From the NCBI GenBank assembly GCA_027487695.1, contig JAIYDB010000059.1, positions 1 to 50,115 on the forward strand: a stretch of DNA of 50,115 nt, given 5' to 3'. The DNA comes from Cytophagaceae bacterium (GTDB lineage: Bacteria; Bacteroidota; Bacteroidia; Cytophagales; Flexibacteraceae). Positions 8,955 through 27,465 of the stretch are shown here, piece after piece. The position numbers and the translations under genes are program-made. The stretch's first letter is position 1; each line of letters begins with the position of its first letter. The notes under the pieces are model-generated. The model did not search any database. It saw only the letters and a list, made by a program, of their open reading frames with translations, and had not been told where the DNA came from.

Positions 8955-9000
8955 AATGCTAGGTTAGCCCTTGATAACTACAAATAACTACTCATCTCCT

Positions 9001-12000
9001 ATGAGAAAACTGTTTACTTCGATTGTATTACTACTAATAGTGGGATTGGCGTATGCCCAACCAACCCGAGTGGTAATCATAGACTCCTTCCCTTATCAAC
9101 AACCTTTTGATACTTCAGATGGTGGCTGGTATTCGTTAACCCCAAGTGGCAACCCAACATCTACTCCTTGGTTCTGGGGTAATATTTATAAACCTAACAG
9201 AACAAGTACGGGCAATTTGCCAGGACCTTTACCTGCAACCTCAAGAACTGCATGGACTACTGGTGCTGTTGACCATTTTTATGACAACACCATGGCATCG
9301 GTAGTAATATCGCCAAGGATGAATTTCTCTAACATAGGTTTGCCAAATATCTCTATGGATATTGCTTGGAACTTTGAAGAAGGAATGCCTGGTCCGAGAG
9401 ATGCCTTGCAAATGGAATTTAGCACCGATGATGGTAACTCTTGGCGATTAGTTCCTCAAGATTACTTTTTACAAGGTGGCTATAACCAGCCGGCTCAGCC
9501 TGGCGGTCAGGTTCCTGCAAATATTTTTATAAATCCAAGCTTACCAAACGCGCAGCGTTCTTGTTGGGCAAGTAGCAGTGCTGGAGCTGCAACTGGTGCA
9601 ATGATCAGAATGAGTGTTAATATCCCAGAACTTGGTGGCAGAGATGCTTGTAGAATTAGATTTAGAATGTATGCCGATGCCGACGTTGCAGCAGGTGAAG
9701 CTGCATTTGATGGTTTTGTTTTTGATAACCTATCAATAAGAAACGTAGTTAATATTGCGGCTGCAAGTTCTAATATTACTCCAAATACAGGAGTTGAGGG
9801 TGGTTTATTCCTTCCTCAGTTTAGCTATCGTGTTGTTTCTGGCGTATCCAGAGGTGCTGTTGTTGGTTATACTCATAACGGTATTACGTTTACTGAGACT
9901 GTAAATAGAAGAGCTGAAGTTGGAGATATTGTTACCCACAGATTTTCTCAACCTATAATTGTTTCACGTTTAGGAAGAGATACTATCCGTTTCTTTTGTG
10001 CCGATTTAGAGGGTGATGTGCAACCAAGTAACGATACGCTTCGCAGGTTTTTCATTTGGCACCCAATTGCAAACTTGCCTTACACTAATAACTTCCAATC
10101 AAATAATGGTGGTTTTATTTCAGAATCAGCTTCTGTTGCTCCAAATACTTGGGCCTATGGGCAAATTGCAAAACCTATAATTACAGGACAGCCAGGCAAT
10201 GCCAACGGCTGGGTTACTGGTGGTTTAGGCAATGGTCTTTATAACAACAGCGAAATTTCAAATTTATATAGCCCAGTGTTTAGGTTACCAGCCAACACCA
10301 AACCAAGCATTAGTTTGAGTTTATGGCATAATACACCTAGAGGGCAAGATGGTGCAAGAATTGAATATTCTACCAACGGAGGTAGTAACTGGTTTACAGT
10401 TGGTTCTTCAAGATCTGGAAGTAACTGGTACAATACAAGTATCAATACATTTCCAGGTATTCCTAATAACAATGCATGGTCAGATAGTTCAAGAGCTTGG
10501 ATTCAAGCAAGTAATTATTTGAATGTGCAGTTTGATTCTATTACTTTCATTCAATTCAGAGTTCATTTCCGTGCAAACCCTTCTGTAAACTCTGAAGGTA
10601 TAGCCATTGATGATTTTGGTGTTTCTGCATTCAGACGTCCGGATTTGATTATTAATAGAATAACCTCGCCAGATAGATTGTGTGGCGCTACGGCAGCAAG
10701 TACTGTTACCATTAACATCAGAAATATTGGTGCAGGCCCTAGCACAGGTGCTACAGTGAATATGCGTTACAATAATGGCAGTGTAATATCACAGCCATTA
10801 ACTCAGGTAATTCAGGCAGGTGATAGTTTAGCATTTACTTTTACCCAAACTATAAACCTTACAGTAGCTCCAGGTTTAAAGCCAATAAAAGTTTGGTTAT
10901 CCAATACCAACGATGCTAATACATTTAATGATAACGATACTTTAGTAGCAAACACGCCTACTGTTATCAGAATTAACCCATCAAGGTCAATAAGCACATT
11001 CCCGCTTACTGAATCGTTTGACGATCCTGCCACCACGGCATGGGCTATTTCACCTATTGCTCCAATAAACAATACTTCATTTGAAGTGGGCTTTGTAAAT
11101 AAGGTAACTTTAGGTGGTCCTATTGCTGGTGCAGGTTCATTAGCAACCAGATTAACTGGTAGCCATGGTACTACTGAATCTGGTGCTTTAGAAAGTGCTT
11201 GTTTAGATCTTTCGTCAATGGCCGATCCTCAAATTAGCTTTTCAATGAAGCGTTTGATGTCTATTTCATCTGGTTTACAATTACAGTATTCTACTAATAG
11301 TGGTATTTCTTGGCTTGTTGTGCCTAATGAAACAGAACCAGGTGTTTTTGGTACCAACTGGTATAATACAAATTACGCATTAGCTGGTGCAACAAATGGC
11401 GAACTAGCTAATAGCCCAAACAAAAATTCGGTTTGGAGTAGTTCAACCCTTACTCCTGTAACTGCAAGCCAATCGTTAAGATTTTTAAGACAATATGGAG
11501 GTAATGTTAAGTTACGTTTGGTATTTGTGTCTGGTGGTGCAGCTAACGAAGGTGTTGTTATTGACGATCTTGTGATTGCAAATGCAACTGGTGCCGATTT
11601 AGCGGCTGCTTCTGTTGCTCCTACTGCAGGTTGTGCTTTACCAGCAACTAACCAACAGTTTACTGTTGTTGTAAGAAATACAAGAAGTTCTACCTATTCA
11701 GGTCCTGTAACTTTCTCTATCTTCAGAAACGATACTTTAGTTGTTACTGAAAACGCAGCTAACCTAAATATTCCAGCTAGTTCAAGTACAAACTATAATT
11801 TCACTCAGCGTTTCAACTTTTTAAATGGAACAAGAGTAAAAGTTATTATTGCTGGTGTAAACGATATTTCAGCTACTAATGATACTGCAACTTCAGTAGT
11901 ATTTAATACCACAACAATTGTTGGTATTCCTTACATCCAAAGTTTTGAAGCAGGTGCAGAAGGTTGGCAAACCTACAGTACAGGACCAAATAACTGGGTT

Positions 12001-15000
12001 TTAGGCACTCCAGCAAAAAGAGCTCCTAATGCTTTAAACACAGCAGCTCAGGGTACTAATGCTTGGGTTACAGCAAACCTAACGGGTACTTACGGTAATA
12101 ATGAGAGAATGTGGCTAGTAAGCCCTTGTTTCAACCTTGCGACTGTTGAAATTCCTAAGATTTCGTTCTCCATGTATTTTGCAACAACTGCCGGAGTTAA
12201 CGATGGTGTTACCTTACAGTTTACTACTGATTTAGGGAACACTTGGAACGATGTAAGCCGAGTAGCTCCAAATGGTATTTATAATACAGCTTCAATTTCT
12301 TCATTAAGAACCTCTGGATTAAGTGCAACTGGTAGTGGTTGGGCTGGAAATGGTACCATAGGTTGGAGAAATTATACCTTAGAAATACCTGCAGTTGGCA
12401 GAACTACTTGTAGGTTCAGATTTGTATTTGCTTCAGATGCTTCTGGTGTAAACGCCAATGGTGTTGCAATGGATAACTTCCGTATAACTGATGCGTTACC
12501 TGCCGATATGCAACTTTCTGCTGCTGATAGAATTGTTGGTGTTTGCGGTGTACAAAACCGTGATAGCGTTCGTATTATTGTTCAGAACCGTTCACTGTCT
12601 GTTGCATCATCGTACCGTTATTTCTTAACCTTTAACACTGGTATAAGAGTAAATGGTAATGATAGTATTTATAGAAGCCCATCTATCACTGTAAACACGC
12701 GTAGGCCATTAGCTAGATTTGGTTCAGATACTACTTTCTTCAGATTAAGTAGCATACCTCGTTTAGCAGATAACGTACCAGTTTCTTATTCTGGCCAGTT
12801 TGAACTTGATAATGCTCAAGACGATACTGCTGAAAACAATATTCAGCCATTTGATTTAGTTATTTCGCCAAACCTAAGTTTGGCCGATAATGCAACTGCA
12901 TCGTACACGAAAGATTTTACAACTTCAACACAGCCAAACGAGTGGAAAGCATACAGAAGAATAGGTCATAACTTATTTAAAGTTAGAGATACTGCTTATG
13001 TATATTCATCTCCAACCATTGGTGCTGTTGATTTTGGTGGAAGAGCAGCTTCTGTTTTCCCATCTATTCCTAGTAACAATGCTCCAATTGTTTGTTTCTA
13101 TGAATCGCCTTGCTTTAACCTTTCAGGTATTTTAGGAACGCCTATCATTAGCCTTGAAAGCAAGAGAGCCTTTGCTAACAACAATGCAAATGCCGTTCAA
13201 TTGCAGGCATCTACCAACGGTGGAACTACATGGTTTGTATTATCTGCAAGCGTAGCTCCTGGAACCAGTAGTAACTGGTATAATGGCAATGGCGATCCTG
13301 GATTAGCACCAGTGGCTAACCAATCGCAAGCTTGGGTTGGTAATTCACCTTCGTATCAATTATCTTTTACCAATGCTCCACAGTTATCTCGTCAGGCAAA
13401 TGTAAAGTTCAGACTTGCTTATTTCGGCAGAACTCCTGATGCAGGTGGTGGTTTCCAAATTCGCTCATTTACAATTAGCAACAGAAGAGCTATTGATGTA
13501 ACCTTGAATGCGATTACTCCAAGTTCTAGCTGCGGTCTGTCTAATAATGAAACTGTAGTAGTAAAAGGCGGATATGTAAATACCGATACTTTACAACATT
13601 ATCGTCAAGTAAGGATTTTCATTAACGATACTTTAAGGAAAGATACTACTTCAGGAATAGTAAGAGGTATAAATAATTTTGAAGTTCCTGTTCTTGGTGT
13701 TAACCTATCCCAAACAAGATCTTATATTGTTAGAGCCGATATCCGCTTGTTCAGATTGGTGCCAAGGTTTGGTAACCCAGGCGTTTTTGATACTGTTAAT
13801 ATTAATGAGTTTTCTTCTAACAATAACGTTTACATTGATTCTATCAGAAACTCTGTACTTGCTGGTACTTTACCAATTTATAGCTCATATAGAGCAAACC
13901 CAGGCGATTGGAGAGCATATCTAATTCCAGGGTTTAATACACAGCCATTCTGGCGCCACGGTCCTGCAACTGAGTGGGGCAATGGTACAGGATGGGCTAC
14001 AGGTGCTCAGCCAAATAACCAACGTAGGGTATTTGCAGTTGAATCGCCTTGCTATGAAATTCCTGAATCGTTTAATAACGGTGTTAGAATTACAATCAGA
14101 GGTAAGTTTAACCTAGTTCGTGGTTTAGATGGCGTTATTTTACAATCATCTACCGATAATGGTTTAACTTGGAATACTGTTGAACGTGATAATACTTTAG
14201 CACAACGTGGTTGGTACCAAGGAGCAGGTTTCGTATTTACAAACTCTGCTATTGATACTTGGACATCTGTTTCAGATTCTTTAGACTCTCCTACAGTGAA
14301 CCAAGATTTCAAACTAATGGAATCTAATGTATTGTTCCCTGCTGGTGCTTCAAACGTTAAATTCAGATTTGTTTGTGGTATTCAAGGCGATCAAGCTATT
14401 TACCGTGGCTTCGCTTCAAGAGGTTTCTTATTTGATAGCGTTGCTATTACTGCACCTCGTTTCCGTGATATTGCACCAATTGGTATAAATGTATCTTCAG
14501 GCTGTGGTTTAACTTCTACAGAGTTGCTTCAAGTTACTGTTGGTAACTATATGCCTACTCTTGTTCCAGCAAACAGATATTCTGCCTACTTGTATGTTAA
14601 TGGTAATCTTATTGATACCGCAGCAGGTGTAAGCCCAATCAATGCTTTGAACGGTAATACGTTACAAACAAATACCATTGTATTTAACAGACGTCTGGAT
14701 TTAGGTACTCCAAATGCCGATTACCAAATCAGAATTATTACCAGAATGCAGGATGGCGATCAGAACAATTTTAATGATACGTTCAATACGGTTATTACTA
14801 ACGTTCCGTTTGTAAATACTTTCCCTTTTGTAGAGCGTTTTAATACCCAAAGAAGTAACTGGACTCAAGTATTCTATGCTCGTCCTGATTTGAACACATT
14901 TGGTTATAGACGTCCAGCATTTATTGCTGCCAACGATACAGGAAATGGTACTGCAGCTTTCTGGGGTAATCCAACCTACCGTGCAAGAGAACATAATGGT

Positions 15001-17724
15001 ATTATTTCTCCTTGTTTCGATGTTTCGAGCATGAGAGCGCCAATTGTTGATTTCAAGATTGCTTTCAATAGTGAAGTTAATGCCGATGGTATTACGCTAG
15101 AAGTTACCACTAATGGTGGTGCCACTTGGAATTTCTTAGGTTCAGCAATTGATTTTAACTGGTTCAATACTGGTTTGGTAAACAGTTTAGCTGGTCCGGG
15201 TTGGTCTGGTAACTCTGGTAATAGATATATTAGAGTGCAGCACCCTATACCTTCTGCCTCTGATTTACGTTTCAGATTCAGAATGCAATCAGATGTTGGT
15301 GCACCAACTGCAGGTTCATTCTTTGCTATTGATAGCTTCGGTGTAAGAGAGGCTAACCCTATTGAAGTTGAATTATCACGTTTCCAAACTCCTGATCCAG
15401 GTGGTTGCAGAATGGCAGATAGCTTACAACCTCAAATCAGGTTTATCCAAAATGGTTCAGATACTGTAAGACGTTATATAGCTATTTTAACTTACGGTGC
15501 AATAGTGATTAGAGATACCGTAACTAATGCTTCAGTTGCTCCTAAAACATCGGCAGTTCATACATTTTCACGTTTCGTTCCAATACCTACAGGTGTTAAC
15601 TTTACGATGACTGCACGTATGATTTTAGATAACGAGGCGGTGGTTATTAATAATACCAACACTAGCAACTTTATTAGATTCCCAGATACTTTAGCAACAG
15701 GTACCACCAACAATTTTGATGGTAATAATATGGGTACTCCTAACTTGCTATTTGGTTTCACTGAGCAATCTGGTCCTAATATTCCTGGACCTCTGCCTGC
15801 TGGCCAAGGTGGTTGGGTAGCAACTAACGATGTTCAAACCGCAGCAACAGGTCACACTGGTGCTAAGGTTGTATTAGGTGGCAATACCACGAACTTCTGG
15901 TTGGTTTCACCTCCGTTCAACCTTAATGGTGGCGATATCTTAAAGGTTAAAGCTTGGGGCGTAAGAAGAAATACTATTGCCAAATTACCTCTAGAATCTA
16001 TCCTATACATTCCAGATGATAGCTTATTCATAAAAGTTTCTACTGATTGTGGTGCTAGCTGGATTACAGTTGATCGCTTCGGACCAGCTGAACTAGATGG
16101 TAGAAGGGAATTTGCTAGTGAAGTAGGTGCTTATGGTGGTCCTGATCGTAGAATTGGTATTCAAGTAAGTAGTACAACTGGTTCTGTTTACTTTACTGAG
16201 CAAACTGAAATTATTGTAGATTCTATTGGTCTTCAAAAAGGACCTCCAGTAGATGCACGTGCTGGCGCATTTCTTACCCCAGATGGTACTTGCAACTTTA
16301 CTGGCGATAGAATAAACGTGAAAGTAAGGGTTGATAACCGTGGTGGTAGCGTTATTAGAAACTTCAAAGCTTATTTGAAGGTTGATAATAGAGATACCAT
16401 TGAGTATGTTTCTACTCCGGCCGATTCTATCCCAAGTTTAGGTTCAAGAGAAGTTACCTTCACTCCGGCAGAATACTTTGGTCTTTACACAAGCTACAAT
16501 ATGCAGTTCTGGGTTAAAGCTGATGGTGATAGCCTGTTAAGTAACGATACGCTAAAAACAACAGCTACTCGCTACAGAACGCCTAGTGCTCCTATTAACT
16601 TTAATGCAGGTACTCTTCAAAATGATTTAGGTAATATGCCTACTATTTACCCTGGTTGGTTTATCCGTTCAGGTTTAACAAATAGCGAGCCACCTATTGA
16701 TGTATGGAATAGAGGTAATATTAGATTAACCATGACACGTACTAGCCCAGCTGCTATGGTTGAACTAAATAATAGTGATTATACGCATTGGTTAAGTTCT
16801 CCAGACTTTACAGTTATCCCTAACTCAGAATTTACTTTCAAAGCTTACGTTCAACGTAATGGAGTTCGTTCAAGTTTTAATGGTACTCAGTTAATGGAGT
16901 TATTGTACAGCACAAACTGCGGAACTTCTTGGGAGATTTTAGAAACCTTCAATGCTTCTTCATTTACCAACACATTTGCAGATAATTTCTCTGTGTCATT
17001 AGCTTCATTGGCAAACCGTTCAGCTCGTTTCGCATTGCGTATCACTGATGGTCCTGCGGTTGATTTGAATAATATTAACCTTGCTATTGACGATATTCAG
17101 ATTGTAAGTAACTACGAGTTAGACGGTGCTGTAGGCTCTTTCATTAACATTCCTTCATGCCTTGCTCAAAACGGTGCATATGCATTTGGAGTAAATGTGC
17201 TAAACACGGGTGGTTCTGAGTTCCCATTAGATAGCTATGCTACTTTAACTATTAACTTAGGCGACACAGTAATCACTAACCGTCAGGAATTACCACTAAT
17301 TACTCCTGGTACTAGTGCTCCTGTAGTGTTTGATCTATGGCAGGCAGAAAGCTATCCTTACGCTGAATTAATTGTTCAGTTAAGCATTCCTAGTGAATCA
17401 TACACTGAAAACAACGACGGTCGTTTCTATATCTATAGCTGTACATTGCCAACTGGTGTTACTCCATTATTGGCCGATGAAGTTAGCTTATTCCCTAACC
17501 CAAGTAATGGAACATTCTTCTTGAACTTAGGCAAGGCAAGTAACGTAACTACAGATGTTAGAATTGTTGACGTAGTTGGCAGATTAGTTCATAAGCAACA
17601 TATTGCTTCTTCTAATGCCAATGGCGATATTCAAGTTGCAACTTCTGGTTTAGCGAAAGGTGTTTATCAAGTATTGGTAAATCAGAACGGCAAGCAAATA
17701 GTTAAGAAACTAGTTATCAAATAG
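9001..17724 (+). CDS. Giant T9SS-secreted protein with nine repeated MAM-like/CARDB-like modules
   Basis: I start at ATG 9001, which opens a good signal peptide ending GLAYAQ, and not at the upstream in-frame TTG 8971. This gives 2907 residues. About nine modules follow, each near 300 residues. Each opens with a Y/F...F...W segment, then 'SP.F/C.L', 'DG..L..STNGG..W' and 'NWYN', and ends in an 'AIDDF'-type strand, like a jelly-roll (MAM/lectin-like) domain. Between them are CARDB-like Ig domains with a Cys-Gly pair. Module openings are near 9091, 10078, 10999, 11926, 12897, 13870, 14820, 15702 and 16591. The last ~80 residues are a type A T9SS sorting domain (LFPNPSNGTF...GLAKGVYQVLV...KLVIK). 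It is probably a long surface fibre or adhesin; the ligand is unknown. Confidence 0.9.
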   Translation: MRKLFTSIVLLLIVGLAYAQPTRVVIIDSFPYQQPFDTSDGGWYSLTPSGNPTSTPWFWGNIYKPNRTSTGNLPGPLPATSRTAWTTGAVDHFYDNTMASVVISPRMNFSNIGLPNISMDIAWNFEEGMPGPRDALQMEFSTDDGNSWRLVPQDYFLQGGYNQPAQPGGQVPANIFINPSLPNAQRSCWASSSAGAATGAMIRMSVNIPELGGRDACRIRFRMYADADVAAGEAAFDGFVFDNLSIRNVVNIAAASSNITPNTGVEGGLFLPQFSYRVVSGVSRGAVVGYTHNGITFTETVNRRAEVGDIVTHRFSQPIIVSRLGRDTIRFFCADLEGDVQPSNDTLRRFFIWHPIANLPYTNNFQSNNGGFISESASVAPNTWAYGQIAKPIITGQPGNANGWVTGGLGNGLYNNSEISNLYSPVFRLPANTKPSISLSLWHNTPRGQDGARIEYSTNGGSNWFTVGSSRSGSNWYNTSINTFPGIPNNNAWSDSSRAWIQASNYLNVQFDSITFIQFRVHFRANPSVNSEGIAIDDFGVSAFRRPDLIINRITSPDRLCGATAASTVTINIRNIGAGPSTGATVNMRYNNGSVISQPLTQVIQAGDSLAFTFTQTINLTVAPGLKPIKVWLSNTNDANTFNDNDTLVANTPTVIRINPSRSISTFPLTESFDDPATTAWAISPIAPINNTSFEVGFVNKVTLGGPIAGAGSLATRLTGSHGTTESGALESACLDLSSMADPQISFSMKRLMSISSGLQLQYSTNSGISWLVVPNETEPGVFGTNWYNTNYALAGATNGELANSPNKNSVWSSSTLTPVTASQSLRFLRQYGGNVKLRLVFVSGGAANEGVVIDDLVIANATGADLAAASVAPTAGCALPATNQQFTVVVRNTRSSTYSGPVTFSIFRNDTLVVTENAANLNIPASSSTNYNFTQRFNFLNGTRVKVIIAGVNDISATNDTATSVVFNTTTIVGIPYIQSFEAGAEGWQTYSTGPNNWVLGTPAKRAPNALNTAAQGTNAWVTANLTGTYGNNERMWLVSPCFNLATVEIPKISFSMYFATTAGVNDGVTLQFTTDLGNTWNDVSRVAPNGIYNTASISSLRTSGLSATGSGWAGNGTIGWRNYTLEIPAVGRTTCRFRFVFASDASGVNANGVAMDNFRITDALPADMQLSAADRIVGVCGVQNRDSVRIIVQNRSLSVASSYRYFLTFNTGIRVNGNDSIYRSPSITVNTRRPLARFGSDTTFFRLSSIPRLADNVPVSYSGQFELDNAQDDTAENNIQPFDLVISPNLSLADNATASYTKDFTTSTQPNEWKAYRRIGHNLFKVRDTAYVYSSPTIGAVDFGGRAASVFPSIPSNNAPIVCFYESPCFNLSGILGTPIISLESKRAFANNNANAVQLQASTNGGTTWFVLSASVAPGTSSNWYNGNGDPGLAPVANQSQAWVGNSPSYQLSFTNAPQLSRQANVKFRLAYFGRTPDAGGGFQIRSFTISNRRAIDVTLNAITPSSSCGLSNNETVVVKGGYVNTDTLQHYRQVRIFINDTLRKDTTSGIVRGINNFEVPVLGVNLSQTRSYIVRADIRLFRLVPRFGNPGVFDTVNINEFSSNNNVYIDSIRNSVLAGTLPIYSSYRANPGDWRAYLIPGFNTQPFWRHGPATEWGNGTGWATGAQPNNQRRVFAVESPCYEIPESFNNGVRITIRGKFNLVRGLDGVILQSSTDNGLTWNTVERDNTLAQRGWYQGAGFVFTNSAIDTWTSVSDSLDSPTVNQDFKLMESNVLFPAGASNVKFRFVCGIQGDQAIYRGFASRGFLFDSVAITAPRFRDIAPIGINVSSGCGLTSTELLQVTVGNYMPTLVPANRYSAYLYVNGNLIDTAAGVSPINALNGNTLQTNTIVFNRRLDLGTPNADYQIRIITRMQDGDQNNFNDTFNTVITNVPFVNTFPFVERFNTQRSNWTQVFYARPDLNTFGYRRPAFIAANDTGNGTAAFWGNPTYRAREHNGIISPCFDVSSMRAPIVDFKIAFNSEVNADGITLEVTTNGGATWNFLGSAIDFNWFNTGLVNSLAGPGWSGNSGNRYIRVQHPIPSASDLRFRFRMQSDVGAPTAGSFFAIDSFGVREANPIEVELSRFQTPDPGGCRMADSLQPQIRFIQNGSDTVRRYIAILTYGAIVIRDTVTNASVAPKTSAVHTFSRFVPIPTGVNFTMTARMILDNEAVVINNTNTSNFIRFPDTLATGTTNNFDGNNMGTPNLLFGFTEQSGPNIPGPLPAGQGGWVATNDVQTAATGHTGAKVVLGGNTTNFWLVSPPFNLNGGDILKVKAWGVRRNTIAKLPLESILYIPDDSLFIKVSTDCGASWITVDRFGPAELDGRREFASEVGAYGGPDRRIGIQVSSTTGSVYFTEQTEIIVDSIGLQKGPPVDARAGAFLTPDGTCNFTGDRINVKVRVDNRGGSVIRNFKAYLKVDNRDTIEYVSTPADSIPSLGSREVTFTPAEYFGLYTSYNMQFWVKADGDSLLSNDTLKTTATRYRTPSAPINFNAGTLQNDLGNMPTIYPGWFIRSGLTNSEPPIDVWNRGNIRLTMTRTSPAAMVELNNSDYTHWLSSPDFTVIPNSEFTFKAYVQRNGVRSSFNGTQLMELLYSTNCGTSWEILETFNASSFTNTFADNFSVSLASLANRSARFALRITDGPAVDLNNINLAIDDIQIVSNYELDGAVGSFINIPSCLAQNGAYAFGVNVLNTGGSEFPLDSYATLTINLGDTVITNRQELPLITPGTSAPVVFDLWQAESYPYAELIVQLSIPSESYTENNDGRFYIYSCTLPTGVTPLLADEVSLFPNPSNGTFFLNLGKASNVTTDVRIVDVVGRLVHKQHIASSNANGDIQVATSGLAKGVYQVLVNQNGKQIVKKLVIK

Positions 17725-24077: not shown

Positions 24078-24596
24078 GTGACCAATTTTGCTTCCATAAC
24101 CCAGCAAGAGATCATTAGGCTATTAGATAGTTATGATGCTTTAGTAGTTCGTGATTTATTGATACAAGAGTATGGCTATGTACCTTTGGAGGGATCAGGA
24201 TTTTCTGAAAATGGGGCATATTTTATTCACCCTATTGATTGGCCAAAGCCAGATATTTCAAGTGCCAAGTTATGTTGGCCAGCTATGGAGAAACAAGGTT
24301 TGCAGTTTATAGGGTTAAATGGTCCAAATGATATTAAATACTATGATGGTTTGCTGGATGGTAAACCATGTGAACTTAAATTTTACAAGCCTGAAATTGT
24401 ACTTTCTGAAGAAAAATTAGTTAAGAAAATTAAAAGTAAAATGTCAGAGGCTAATAGTCAAGGTGCTTATACTGTTATTGTTGTTCTAGATTTAGAAGAC
24501 TATAAATATGATTGGACCAAGATTCAGAGTCGAATAGATGGCACTATTTCAACCAATTTTTCTAAGCTTAAAAAGTGTATTCTATTAAAAAGATAA
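24078..24596 (+). CDS. Unknown protein; possible free-standing PD-(D/E)xK-type nuclease
   Basis: The protein has 172 residues, a GTG start 14 bases after the permease stop, and no signal or membrane segment. I do not recognise the family with certainty. The pattern of an Asp-rich strand (KYYDGLLDGK), then CELKF, then a helix with KLVKKIKSKMSEA and a hydrophobic strand (YTVIVVLDLEDY) resembles the PD-(D/E)xK fold of CdiA C-terminal nuclease toxins (Asp...E-x-K). The first ~70 residues have no such signature. No immunity gene is visible nearby. Its stop codon lies at the terminator of the first small RNA unit on the opposite strand. The nuclease reading is an inference; it could equally be an unrelated conserved protein. 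Confidence 0.55.
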   Translation: MTNFASITQQEIIRLLDSYDALVVRDLLIQEYGYVPLEGSGFSENGAYFIHPIDWPKPDISSAKLCWPAMEKQGLQFIGLNGPNDIKYYDGLLDGKPCELKFYKPEIVLSEEKLVKKIKSKMSEANSQGAYTVIVVLDLEDYKYDWTKIQSRIDGTISTNFSKLKKCILLKR

Positions 24597-24676
24597 AGGC
24601 ATCGTTTAGATGCCTTTCGCGGAGCCCTAAAGGCCCGTCTTTTAAAGACGCTGACCATTCAAGGCGATTATTCAGT
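24595..24676 (-). ncRNA. Predicted small RNA 1 of a three-gene array
   Basis: The RNA is predicted at about 82 nt, read from 24676 down to 24595. It begins ACTGAAT, directly after the promoter, then has CAG followed by the hairpin CGTCTT-TAA-AAGACG (plus coordinates 24636-24650), then GGCCTTTAG. It ends in a terminator stem AAAGGCATC/GATGCCTTT (24595-24603 with 24609-24617) followed on the minus strand by T-rich sequence (ATCTTTTT). It has no start codon with a sensible ORF. The terminator overlaps the stop codon of the convergent gene at 24078-24596 and could end both transcripts. I do not recognise a known RNA class. Confidence 0.65.
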
Positions 24677-24679
24677 ATA

Positions 24680-24710
24680 CAAATATAACAACGAAATTAC
24701 TTCTTTCAAA
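24680..24710 (-). promoter_or_regulatory. Promoter of small RNA 1
   Basis: On the minus strand, TTTG (24710-24707) is followed after exactly 19 bases by TATATTTG (24687-24680). This is a full match to the Bacteroidota consensus TTTG-N19-TAnnTTTG. Confidence 0.75.
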
Positions 24711-24755
24711 CGGTTGTAATAATTTCAGCATTTCGCTAGGGTTTTAAAAACGGAA

Positions 24756-24836
24756 AAGGCACCATATAATGATGCCTTAACTTGGAGCACTAAAAGTCCA
24801 CCTTTATTTGGCGCTGCCCATCAATGCTGATTCAGT
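24756..24836 (-). ncRNA. Predicted small RNA 2 of a three-gene array
   Basis: The RNA is predicted at about 81 nt. It begins ACTGAAT like RNA 1, then has CAG followed by a hairpin CGCC-AAATAAA-GGTG (plus coordinates 24799-24813), then GACTTTTAG and TGCTCC, shared with RNA 1 (GGCTCC). It ends in the terminator AAGGCATC...GGTGCCTT (24778-24756), followed by TTCCGTTTTT. One stem pair is U-G on the minus strand but a C-A mismatch on the plus strand, which shows that the minus strand is the transcribed one. Confidence 0.65.
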
Positions 24837-24839
24837 TCG

Positions 24840-24870
24840 CAAATTTATTAAGGAAGTCACGTATTTCAAG
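24840..24870 (-). promoter_or_regulatory. Promoter of small RNA 2
   Basis: On the minus strand, CTTG (24870-24867) is followed after exactly 19 bases by TAAATTTG (24847-24840). This is the same spacing as for the other two units. Confidence 0.75.
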
Positions 24871-24931
24871 TAGTTGAAAATAACTTTTAAATTCCAAGTC
24901 ATTTGTTTTTACATCTTCAATAAAACCACAA

Positions 24932-25011
24932 AAGGAGCTATCGTTAGATAACTCCTTCTGTTTGGCTAAGGAGGTTCCACCATCTGGTGCTGTCACCCCC
25001 TCAATTACAGT
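24932..25011 (-). ncRNA. Predicted small RNA 3 of a three-gene array
   Basis: The RNA is predicted at about 80 nt. It begins ACTGTAAT, has a G-rich run (GAGGGGG), CAG and the hairpin CACC-AGAT-GGTG (plus coordinates 24978-24989), then CCTCC (which can pair with the G-run) and TTAG. It ends in an 11-bp terminator stem, AAGGAGTTATC with GATAGCTCCTT (24957-24932), again with one pair that is U-G only on the minus strand. T-rich sequence follows. It is the most diverged of the three but keeps all landmarks. It begins 43 bases after the PBP1A stop. Confidence 0.6.
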
Positions 25012-25014
25012 TCA

Positions 25015-25045
25015 CAAAACTAGTATTGAATCCTATTATTTCAAT
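25015..25045 (-). promoter_or_regulatory. Promoter of small RNA 3
   Basis: On the minus strand, ATTG (25045-25042) is followed after exactly 19 bases by TAGTTTTG (25022-25015). The -33 element lies 9 bases beyond the PBP1A stop codon. Confidence 0.7.
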
Positions 25046-25053
25046 ACTCGTTT

Positions 25054-27465
25054 TTAGTCTATTGATATAGGGGCACTTGCTCCACTACTATCTACTACTG
25101 ATTTGGTGCTATCTACAGTTGAAGTATCCTTTTTAGGGTAGAAGGTAGGACAAATATATTTGCGGGTAATAGGCACAGTTGCCTTTGGGAAGTAACCCAT
25201 TGTAATGCCGAGGCTTTTATCGGCATATACTTTTTCCATAAAGCGGCCATAAACGGGTAAGGCAGTCTTGGAACCTTCGCCCATACGAAGGTTACGGAAG
25301 TGAACGGCACGTTCATCGGCACCGGTCCATACTCCCGCTACTAGATCTTTACTAAGACCAATAAACCAACCGTCCGAATTGTTTTGAGAGGTACCTGTTT
25401 TACCTGCTAGTTCATTACCTCTGAAAATGTTAAAGGAGAATAAGCCTTGGGCTGTTCCTTGAGGTTCTTGCAAAGTTCCTTTGAGCATATACACCATTAA
25501 CCATGCAGATTCCTTTGTTAATGCTTTACGCATTTTAGGGGTAAATTCTTTAATGATTTTACCGTTTCTATCTTCTATACGGGTGATCAGTTGTGGTTCT
25601 AGCCAAGTACCTTCATTGATGAATGTACTATATGCACCCACCATTTCATATAGGTTTACATCGTAAGGACCAAGACCAATGGATGGCATAGGTTTCAGAT
25701 AGTTACTATCAATACCGAGTTTAACGGCATAATCCATTACTTTTTGCGGACCTACCATCATAGTAAGTTGTGCAGCAATGGTATTGATTGAACGTCCCAT
25801 ACCGTGGCGAAGGGTCATATTCATACCCGAGAAGTTTCCATTTGCATTGCCTGGCTTCCAATGTTTATGGAGCATAATGCCAGCAGAATCTTCATCATAT
25901 TCAATATCAATCCACTTGTCTTGAATTTTGAAGCAAGGAGAATACCCTTGGTCAATCGCAGCAGCATAAACAAATGCCTTAAAGGTTGAGCCTGGTTGCC
26001 TGCGGCTTTGCTTTACGTGATCGTATTGGAAATGGTTATAGTCAACACCGCCAACCCAAGCTTTTATTTGCCCAGTTTTTGGGTCCATAGCCATTATGCC
26101 CGAATGTAGTAAACGCTTATAATACCTGAGCGAATCATAACTACTCATGATTACTGTATCGCCTTCAGGTTTTTTCCAATTGAAAAGCACCATCTTTTTT
26201 GGTGTATTCAAAATAGCATTTACCGATGCGGTATCCTTTTTATACTTCTGCATTAAAGCCTTATAAATAGGCTCCCTAGTCATTAGGCGTTCAATAAAGC
26301 CAGGTATTTCGTTGTTATCGTCATCTACCCAAGGATTTTGACCTTGCCAATGGTTATCGAATTTACGTTGAAGGTCTTTCACGTGCTCACGAACTGCTTC
26401 TTGGGCGTGAGTTTGAAAGCGGGTATCAATACTTACAAATATCTTTAAACCATCGGAGTAAATATCTCGGTCGTTTTCTTCGCCCCAAGCCTCTAATTGC
26501 TCGGTAAGTTCTTTGTTGTAATAGTCTGAAACTCCGTTTGGAGTATTCTGCGGACGGTAATTAAGTGCAATTGGCTTTTGTGATATTTCTTTGTACTGGG
26601 CTGTGGTAAGTAATTTATACTTCACCATTTGGCTTAACACTGTATTTCTTCTTTCTAGTGCTTTGTTATAGTTCCGCATCGGGTTGTAGGAACTTGTAGC
26701 CTTTAACATCCCGATAAGTAAGGCTGCCTCTTCAATCTTTAAACTATCTGGCGAAGTATTAAAGAAAGTACGTGCAGCGGTTTTTACACCATAGCTATTC
26801 AAACCAAAATCTACCGTATTCAGGTACATGGTTATGATTTCTTGCTTGGTGTAGGCTTTTTCAAGTTTGATGGAAACTATCCACTCCTTACTTTTTGTAA
26901 TAATGGTACTTAAGCCTGGTACTTTGCCTAATAAACCTTTCTTTTCTCTTCTCCTGGTTTTGAAGAGGTTTTTGGCTAGCTGTTGGGTAATAGTACTACC
27001 ACCTCTGGAATCGCCTTTGGCAAGATAGTAGAGGATTGAAACGGTTGCTTCAGGATCTATACCGCTATGTTCATAAAAGCGGATATCTTCAGTAGCCAAA
27101 AGAGCCTTGAACATCCAAGGCGAGATGTTGCGGTATTCAACTGGTGAGCGGTTCTCTCGGTAATATTTGCCTAGGAGCACACCATCTGAACTGTAAATTT
27201 CGCTTGCTTGGTCTAGCTTAGGCTTTTGCAGGTCTTCAAGGGAAGGGGTTTTGCCAAATAACCCTAAAAGATTAACATCTACAGAAAAGAAAAACAGAAA
27301 AATAAGTGCCACAATCCATAAAAAGCCTCGGTAAATATTACCTACCATAACCCAAGGCCCACGCATTCCCTTGCGAGTTGTTGCAAAGGGTGTGGTTTTC
27401 CGCCAAAAAGTACCCAAAGCACTTTTTATGATGGTCCACCATTGCAAGAGTCGGTCTTTGAGCAC
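25054..27465 (-). CDS. Penicillin-binding protein 1A (bifunctional glycosyltransferase/transpeptidase)
   Basis: The protein has 803 residues. There is one membrane anchor near residues 45-65, then a GT51 glycosyltransferase domain (EDIRFYEHSGID, GGSTITQQLAKN). The transpeptidase has SxxK at Ser493-Lys496 (STFK), SIN in GRSINTIAAQ, and KTGTSQ. It polymerises lipid II into glycan and cross-links peptides at the outer face of the inner membrane. The start is a GTG at 27465; later Met codons would cut into the anchor region, so GTG is kept with moderate confidence. The short linker after the transpeptidase ends in a Ser/Asp-rich tail. It is the last gene of a panC-panD-PBP1A series. Confidence 0.93.
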   Translation of the reverse strand: MLKDRLLQWWTIIKSALGTFWRKTTPFATTRKGMRGPWVMVGNIYRGFLWIVALIFLFFFSVDVNLLGLFGKTPSLEDLQKPKLDQASEIYSSDGVLLGKYYRENRSPVEYRNISPWMFKALLATEDIRFYEHSGIDPEATVSILYYLAKGDSRGGSTITQQLAKNLFKTRRREKKGLLGKVPGLSTIITKSKEWIVSIKLEKAYTKQEIITMYLNTVDFGLNSYGVKTAARTFFNTSPDSLKIEEAALLIGMLKATSSYNPMRNYNKALERRNTVLSQMVKYKLLTTAQYKEISQKPIALNYRPQNTPNGVSDYYNKELTEQLEAWGEENDRDIYSDGLKIFVSIDTRFQTHAQEAVREHVKDLQRKFDNHWQGQNPWVDDDNNEIPGFIERLMTREPIYKALMQKYKKDTASVNAILNTPKKMVLFNWKKPEGDTVIMSSYDSLRYYKRLLHSGIMAMDPKTGQIKAWVGGVDYNHFQYDHVKQSRRQPGSTFKAFVYAAAIDQGYSPCFKIQDKWIDIEYDEDSAGIMLHKHWKPGNANGNFSGMNMTLRHGMGRSINTIAAQLTMMVGPQKVMDYAVKLGIDSNYLKPMPSIGLGPYDVNLYEMVGAYSTFINEGTWLEPQLITRIEDRNGKIIKEFTPKMRKALTKESAWLMVYMLKGTLQEPQGTAQGLFSFNIFRGNELAGKTGTSQNNSDGWFIGLSKDLVAGVWTGADERAVHFRNLRMGEGSKTALPVYGRFMEKVYADKSLGITMGYFPKATVPITRKYICPTFYPKKDTSTVDSTKSVVDSSGASAPISID

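Follow-up and report, generated by a model that had tools for sequence, protein, structure and literature searches.

The intergenic gap at positions 24597–25053 (457 bases) of the 50,115-nucleotide stretch of DNA analyzed here (the window) contains three RNA units on the minus strand (A, B, and C), flanked by an open reading frame (ORF) at 24078–24596 (+) and a PBP1A-type gene at 25054–27465 (−) with Transgly and Transpeptidase domains. As the initial annotation proposed, the array reads best, from its sequence, as a set of three individual genes for structured small RNAs, every one with a predicted promoter and terminator of its own, and both the homologs recovered with a covariance model and two-sided base changes support this reading. 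That annotation left the function open and overlooked the main clue, namely the adjoining convergent ORF, which has RNA-linked homologs. We give an even chance to a toxin–antitoxin (TA)-like RNA–protein module whose RNAs would hold the nuclease-like product of this ORF inactive by binding it.

Unit A (24588–24676, minus strand, 89 nt) comprises a stem-loop at ~24624–24665 and a terminator at 24595–24617. Unit B (24748–24836, minus strand, 89 nt) has its stem-loop at ~24786–24828 and its terminator at 24756–24778, while unit C (24926–25011, minus strand, 86 nt) has them at ~24966–25004 and 24928–24961, respectively. Measured from ACTG to the T-tract, unit length is 86–91 nt, varying with the point at which the T-tract is cut, and this replaces the 80–82 nt given earlier. 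A TTG-N19-TAnnTTTG promoter and an ACTG start occur at identical spacing in all three units, as first described. The pattern TTG-N19-TANNTTTG-N3-ACTG is found exactly three times in the 50-kb window, each time inside the gap; its expected count is 0.00, and it is absent from 100 of 100 dinucleotide shuffles. Pattern search places the predicted minus-strand promoters at 24680–24709 for unit A (TTG-N19-TATATTTG), 24840–24869 for unit B (TTG-N19-TAAATTTG), and 25015–25044 for unit C (TTG-N19-TAGTTTTG). A 15-nt inverted repeat at 25016–25054, at the end of the PBP1A gene, overlaps the unit C promoter. This repeat is probably the PBP1A terminator, and the overlap means that PBP1A transcription could interfere with unit C.

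The three terminator-like hairpins on the minus strand compare with a mean of 0.7 in shuffled sequence. The strand originally assigned to the array stands, as U-G pairs in the B and C terminators on the minus strand would read A-C on the plus strand. Terminators of the AAGG type are generic across the order and are not diagnostic of the array. Many terminators in other Cytophagales genomes take the form AAAAAGGCATC..GATGCCTTTTT, and these dominate any covariance model that contains a terminator, which makes them a trap for homology claims. A single tRNA is the sole match to Rfam 15 at the gathering score in the whole window, and the RNA region yields only sub-threshold chance matches up to an E-value of 10, consistent with the first impression that no named RNA class has this layout.

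Each whole unit folds better than its shuffled counterparts (z = −4.35, −2.09, and −6.24 for A, B, and C), while the 5′ domain alone shows only a modest gain (z = −1.1 to −2.5). The case for the predicted structure is thus one of paralog conservation and covariation, with folding energy not its basis. The predicted fold starts with a long stem that bears an asymmetric internal loop and is capped by a short apical hairpin; a short linker then leads to the terminator. The long stem contains 10–11 pairs plus the internal loop, whose 5′ side ends in CAG and whose 3′ side reads G, GA, or GGA. The CAG and short hairpin seen in the initial annotation are present, the hairpin being the apical tip of this longer stem rather than a separate element; likewise, the TTAG segment exists but forms part of the 3′ arm of the long stem, where it faces UUGA in the 5′ arm. 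We dropped a kink-turn interpretation of this CAG/GA loop because, relative to the possible G-A pairs, the bulge is on the wrong side.

We built a covariance model from the three window units with the promoter sequence left out (R1) and searched the window's own draft genome (2.9 Mb, 129 contigs). The next-best matches after the window units lie at C8:28466–28553 (RNA D, 38.8 bits) and C76:23177–23272 (RNA E, 34.5 bits), so that a search of the kind originally suggested finds two unlinked homologs. By inspection, RNA E carries a full promoter (TTGAAA, N20 spacing, TAATTTTG-N3-ACTG), and RNA D has a −7-like element (TATATTTC) with no clear TTG; the RNA D promoter is the weakest of the five. Two further models, one built from all five copies (R2) and one from the same five with the terminator left out (R3), each recover exactly five members in this genome, with ~19–23 bits separating the weakest member from the next match in models that were built from these same five. 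Units A, B, and C all match R2, and unit A also matches R1 and R3, although its matches are self-included since all three models contain it.

Unconstrained folding gives RNAs D and E the same architecture, and this result, like their blind discovery with R1, is independent of the hand-made structural alignment of the five RNAs. In that alignment, 95.9% of cells are paired, and the covariation score falls from 0.49 to 0.05–0.16 upon sliding the register. Two-sided changes, the compensatory signal called for at the outset, occur in 14 of the 29 pairs and in all three helices across the five copies, although the alignment was fitted to the structure and such counts lean towards it. Conserved letters cluster in the CAG of the internal loop and in the apical hairpin while the stem letters drift, as expected for a protein-binding RNA.

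The partner ORF (24078–24596, plus strand) encodes 172 amino acids from a GTG start, lies 14 nt behind an FtsX-like gene, and converges with the array such that its stop codon touches the unit A terminator. Small ORFs also converge with the RNA at both other loci (L087 1070–1525 (+) and L088 1563–2093 (−)). The three ORFs are mutually homologous, with pairwise BLASTP E-values of 5e-44, 4e-12, and 5e-21 (from single comparisons) and identities of 31–43%. A profile of the three proteins recovers exactly these three ORFs in the genome; RNA family and ORF family coincide three out of three in both directions and are always arranged tail to tail. Nucleotide homology between the window and C8 extends from the ORF through unit A and its promoter, ending at window position 24710 beside the −33 element, which indicates that the pair was inherited as a unit. 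Unit B aligns separately with RNA D. The duplicated cassette is, on this alignment, ORF plus RNA plus promoter, with the extra RNA copies in tandem in the window. Divergence between these two ORFs at the three codon positions (0.42, 0.26, and 0.55) is distributed as in a coding gene. In the C8 copy, a TGA interrupts the frame ahead of the conserved core, and the same locus (L087 ~1001–1588) also holds the RNA with the weakest promoter; ORF and RNA D may be decaying together there.

The ORF family is an unannotated protein of ~170 amino acids in which W55-P56, C66-W67-P68, and D90-x8-E99-x-K101 are invariant across the three homologs. The last of these (codons at 24345–24380, plus strand) contains the putative catalytic D, E, and K, and is a PD-(D/E)XK-type signature, the short motif on which the nuclease assignment rests. 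No significant sequence match for the family was obtained in Pfam, NCBIfam, PADLOC, PHROGs, or the PDB, the Pfam, NCBIfam, and PADLOC scans covering all three proteins up to an E-value of 0.01. Alignment with hhalign to a CdiA_C member pairs the putative catalytic segment at 30% identity over 44 columns, with a non-significant E-value of 0.12. A single-sequence AlphaFold model was poor (pLDDT 41), and a fold search based on it was rejected as meaningless.

Outside this genome, a DNA search with the array in 59 relatives returned only chance matches of 33–37 bases. R2 gave matches of 24–34 bits in 68 of 390 other genomes of the order, and those inspected were mainly ordinary terminators, some of the rejected matches sitting after tRNAs. 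The terminator-free R3 had no match below an E-value of 0.5 in 37 relatives, and the best same-family match that was viewed lacked a comparable terminator or array. The three-protein profile found no convincing homolog in 98 relatives or in 395 phylum, 390 order, and 395 class genomes; six weak phylum matches (17–19 bits, partial coverage) were judged to be chance on score and coverage. Protein searches of viral, plasmid, and phage collections with the ORF gave no match. Since the sampled related genomes, phages, plasmids, and viral contigs thus hold no significant homolog, the RNA–ORF system is, within these searches, found in one draft genome only, which limits the claim of a TA-like module.

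All three cassettes are flanked by mutually unrelated tail-to-tail gene pairs (FtsX-like/PBP1A, DUF3817/HgmA-like, and PrmC/cation efflux). The cassette may land preferentially between such pairs, or may be tolerated nowhere else. The relatives fetched have other neighbors around PBP1A and hence offer no empty site for comparison. Elsewhere in the window, a giant ORF of 2917 amino acids (8971–17724) carries a Por_Secre_tail domain (a type IX secretion sorting domain), reelin-type repeats, and CARDB domains.

Computation shows an RNA family with a conserved fold that is strictly linked to the ORF family and has been duplicated together with it; transcription, nuclease activity, toxicity, and direct binding are what we infer in proposing how the module might work. 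The convergent ORF would encode a small PD-(D/E)XK-like nuclease that is harmful to the cell and made at a low level, probably via read-through from the FtsX-like gene. Each RNA would be expressed from its own promoter and end at its own terminator, that of unit A abutting the 3′ end of the ORF, and would fold into a stem with the conserved CAG/GA internal loop and short apical hairpin. Present in excess, and three-fold in the window, the RNAs would bind the nuclease through this stem and keep it inactive, and their loss would free it. We favor this TA-like reading because linkage is strict, because the RNAs have their own promoters and extra copies, because conserved letters concentrate in the internal loop and apical hairpin while the stems drift, because the RNAs show no antisense fit to the ORF mRNAs, and because two of the three window RNAs have no overlap with the ORF. 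Counting against it, the locus lies outside any defense island with housekeeping genes as neighbors, and the C8 ORF copy carries its in-frame TGA.

Strict linkage and a conserved RNA structure would fit equally well if the RNA were a working part of the nuclease, serving a ribonucleoprotein (possibly a defense effector) as its activator, scaffold, or guide. We consider this unlikely given that a variable guide-like segment is not evident, that defense genes are absent nearby, and that an inhibitor more readily accounts for tandem copies of the RNA alone. Own promoters and terminators, multiple copies, and structure are also what one would see in ordinary trans-acting small RNAs or decoys with other targets, the ORF being a conserved RNA-binding neighbor or passenger. 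However, every RNA of the family is accompanied by the ORF, and the three loci have unrelated flanking genes, making linkage through a common neighborhood unlikely; we regard this explanation as quite improbable.

Control of the partner ORF by an antisense or 3′-overlapping RNA, in the manner of type I systems, is suggested by the convergent layout and by the ~9–34 nt over which the 3′ ends of RNA and ORF overlap. It seems very improbable in light of units B and C, which do not overlap the ORF, and of the conserved feature being structure. Moreover, the complementarity of the RNA 5′ domains to the ORF mRNAs and the resulting duplex energies do not exceed those of shuffles outside the trivial terminal overlap at D and E, and antisense pairing was rejected on these grounds. 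Least credible, and scarcely to be expected, is that the cassette is a selfish element or repeat that does nothing for the cell, with the RNA structure as a by-product: the location of all three cassettes between tail-to-tail gene pairs and the duplicated unit would suit such an element, but there are just five diverged copies, neither terminal repeats nor a transposase was seen, promoter spacing and pairing are kept, and the ORF diverges in a coding-type pattern. Described more broadly, the locus is tentatively, at somewhat short of even chances, an undescribed class of RNA–protein conflict module in which a PD-(D/E)XK-type nuclease is checked or armed by dedicated, self-contained small RNA genes that lie tail to tail with it and are amplified in tandem.

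Toxins bound by RNAs from adjacent genes are known from ToxIN (PMC8860590) and AbiF/RCd22 (PMC12373285). Like the type III TA systems (ToxIN, CptIN, and TenpIN), the window has an adjacent multicopy RNA that is proposed to block a nuclease-type toxin. ToxI consists of a series of short repeats on a single transcript; it precedes the toxin gene in the same orientation, with a terminator between the two, and folds into pseudoknots (PMC8860590). Here, in contrast, the RNAs converge with the ORF at three of three loci, and each is ~90 nt long with its own promoter and terminator and a predicted simple stem-loop; nor do the three proteins match the ToxN/CptN/TenpN family (Pfam, NCBIfam, and PADLOC, E-value 0.01). 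RCd22 lies upstream of an Abi_2 (HEPN) gene, into which it can read through, and neutralizes AbiF, both in cis and in trans, by binding it directly (PMC12373285). The likeness is a structured RNA of ~100 nt beside a protein that is toxic in AbiF and putatively so here, while the layout is convergent in our case and the Pfam and Rfam scans match neither Abi_2 nor the abiF RNA motif (RF03085).

CdiA_C (PF18451) and other PD-(D/E)XK toxin domains share the arrangement of D, about eight residues, and E-x-K with our family, and the likeness to CdiA_C continues through a helix with a QA or QGA turn and then a strand. The family differs from CdiA_C in lacking a Pfam match, in the hhalign result, and in a distinct N-terminal half with the conserved WP and CWP motifs. 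Among type I pairs, txpA/RatA and bsrG/SR4 have convergent RNA and toxin genes with overlapping 3′ ends, as seen here; their toxins are small hydrophobic peptides under extensive antisense pairing, whereas the present ORF encodes a soluble protein of 170 amino acids, the overlap is minimal or, for two of the three RNAs, absent, and such pairing is not found. To our knowledge, few kinds of RNA antitoxin that bind a protein toxin have been described, and none acts on a PD-(D/E)XK-type nuclease or is convergent with its toxin gene with a separate promoter and terminator for each RNA copy. With five RNAs and three proteins that have diverged, the family offers a natural cross-specificity matrix. 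If confirmed, the locus would be a Bacteroidota RNA–protein module overlooked by standard annotation because both partners are orphans, and would extend the RNA antitoxin systems by a new kind of toxin and a new gene arrangement. The array would work like type III TA and AbiF/RCd22, but with a different toxin family, a different RNA family, and a different position and orientation of the RNA.
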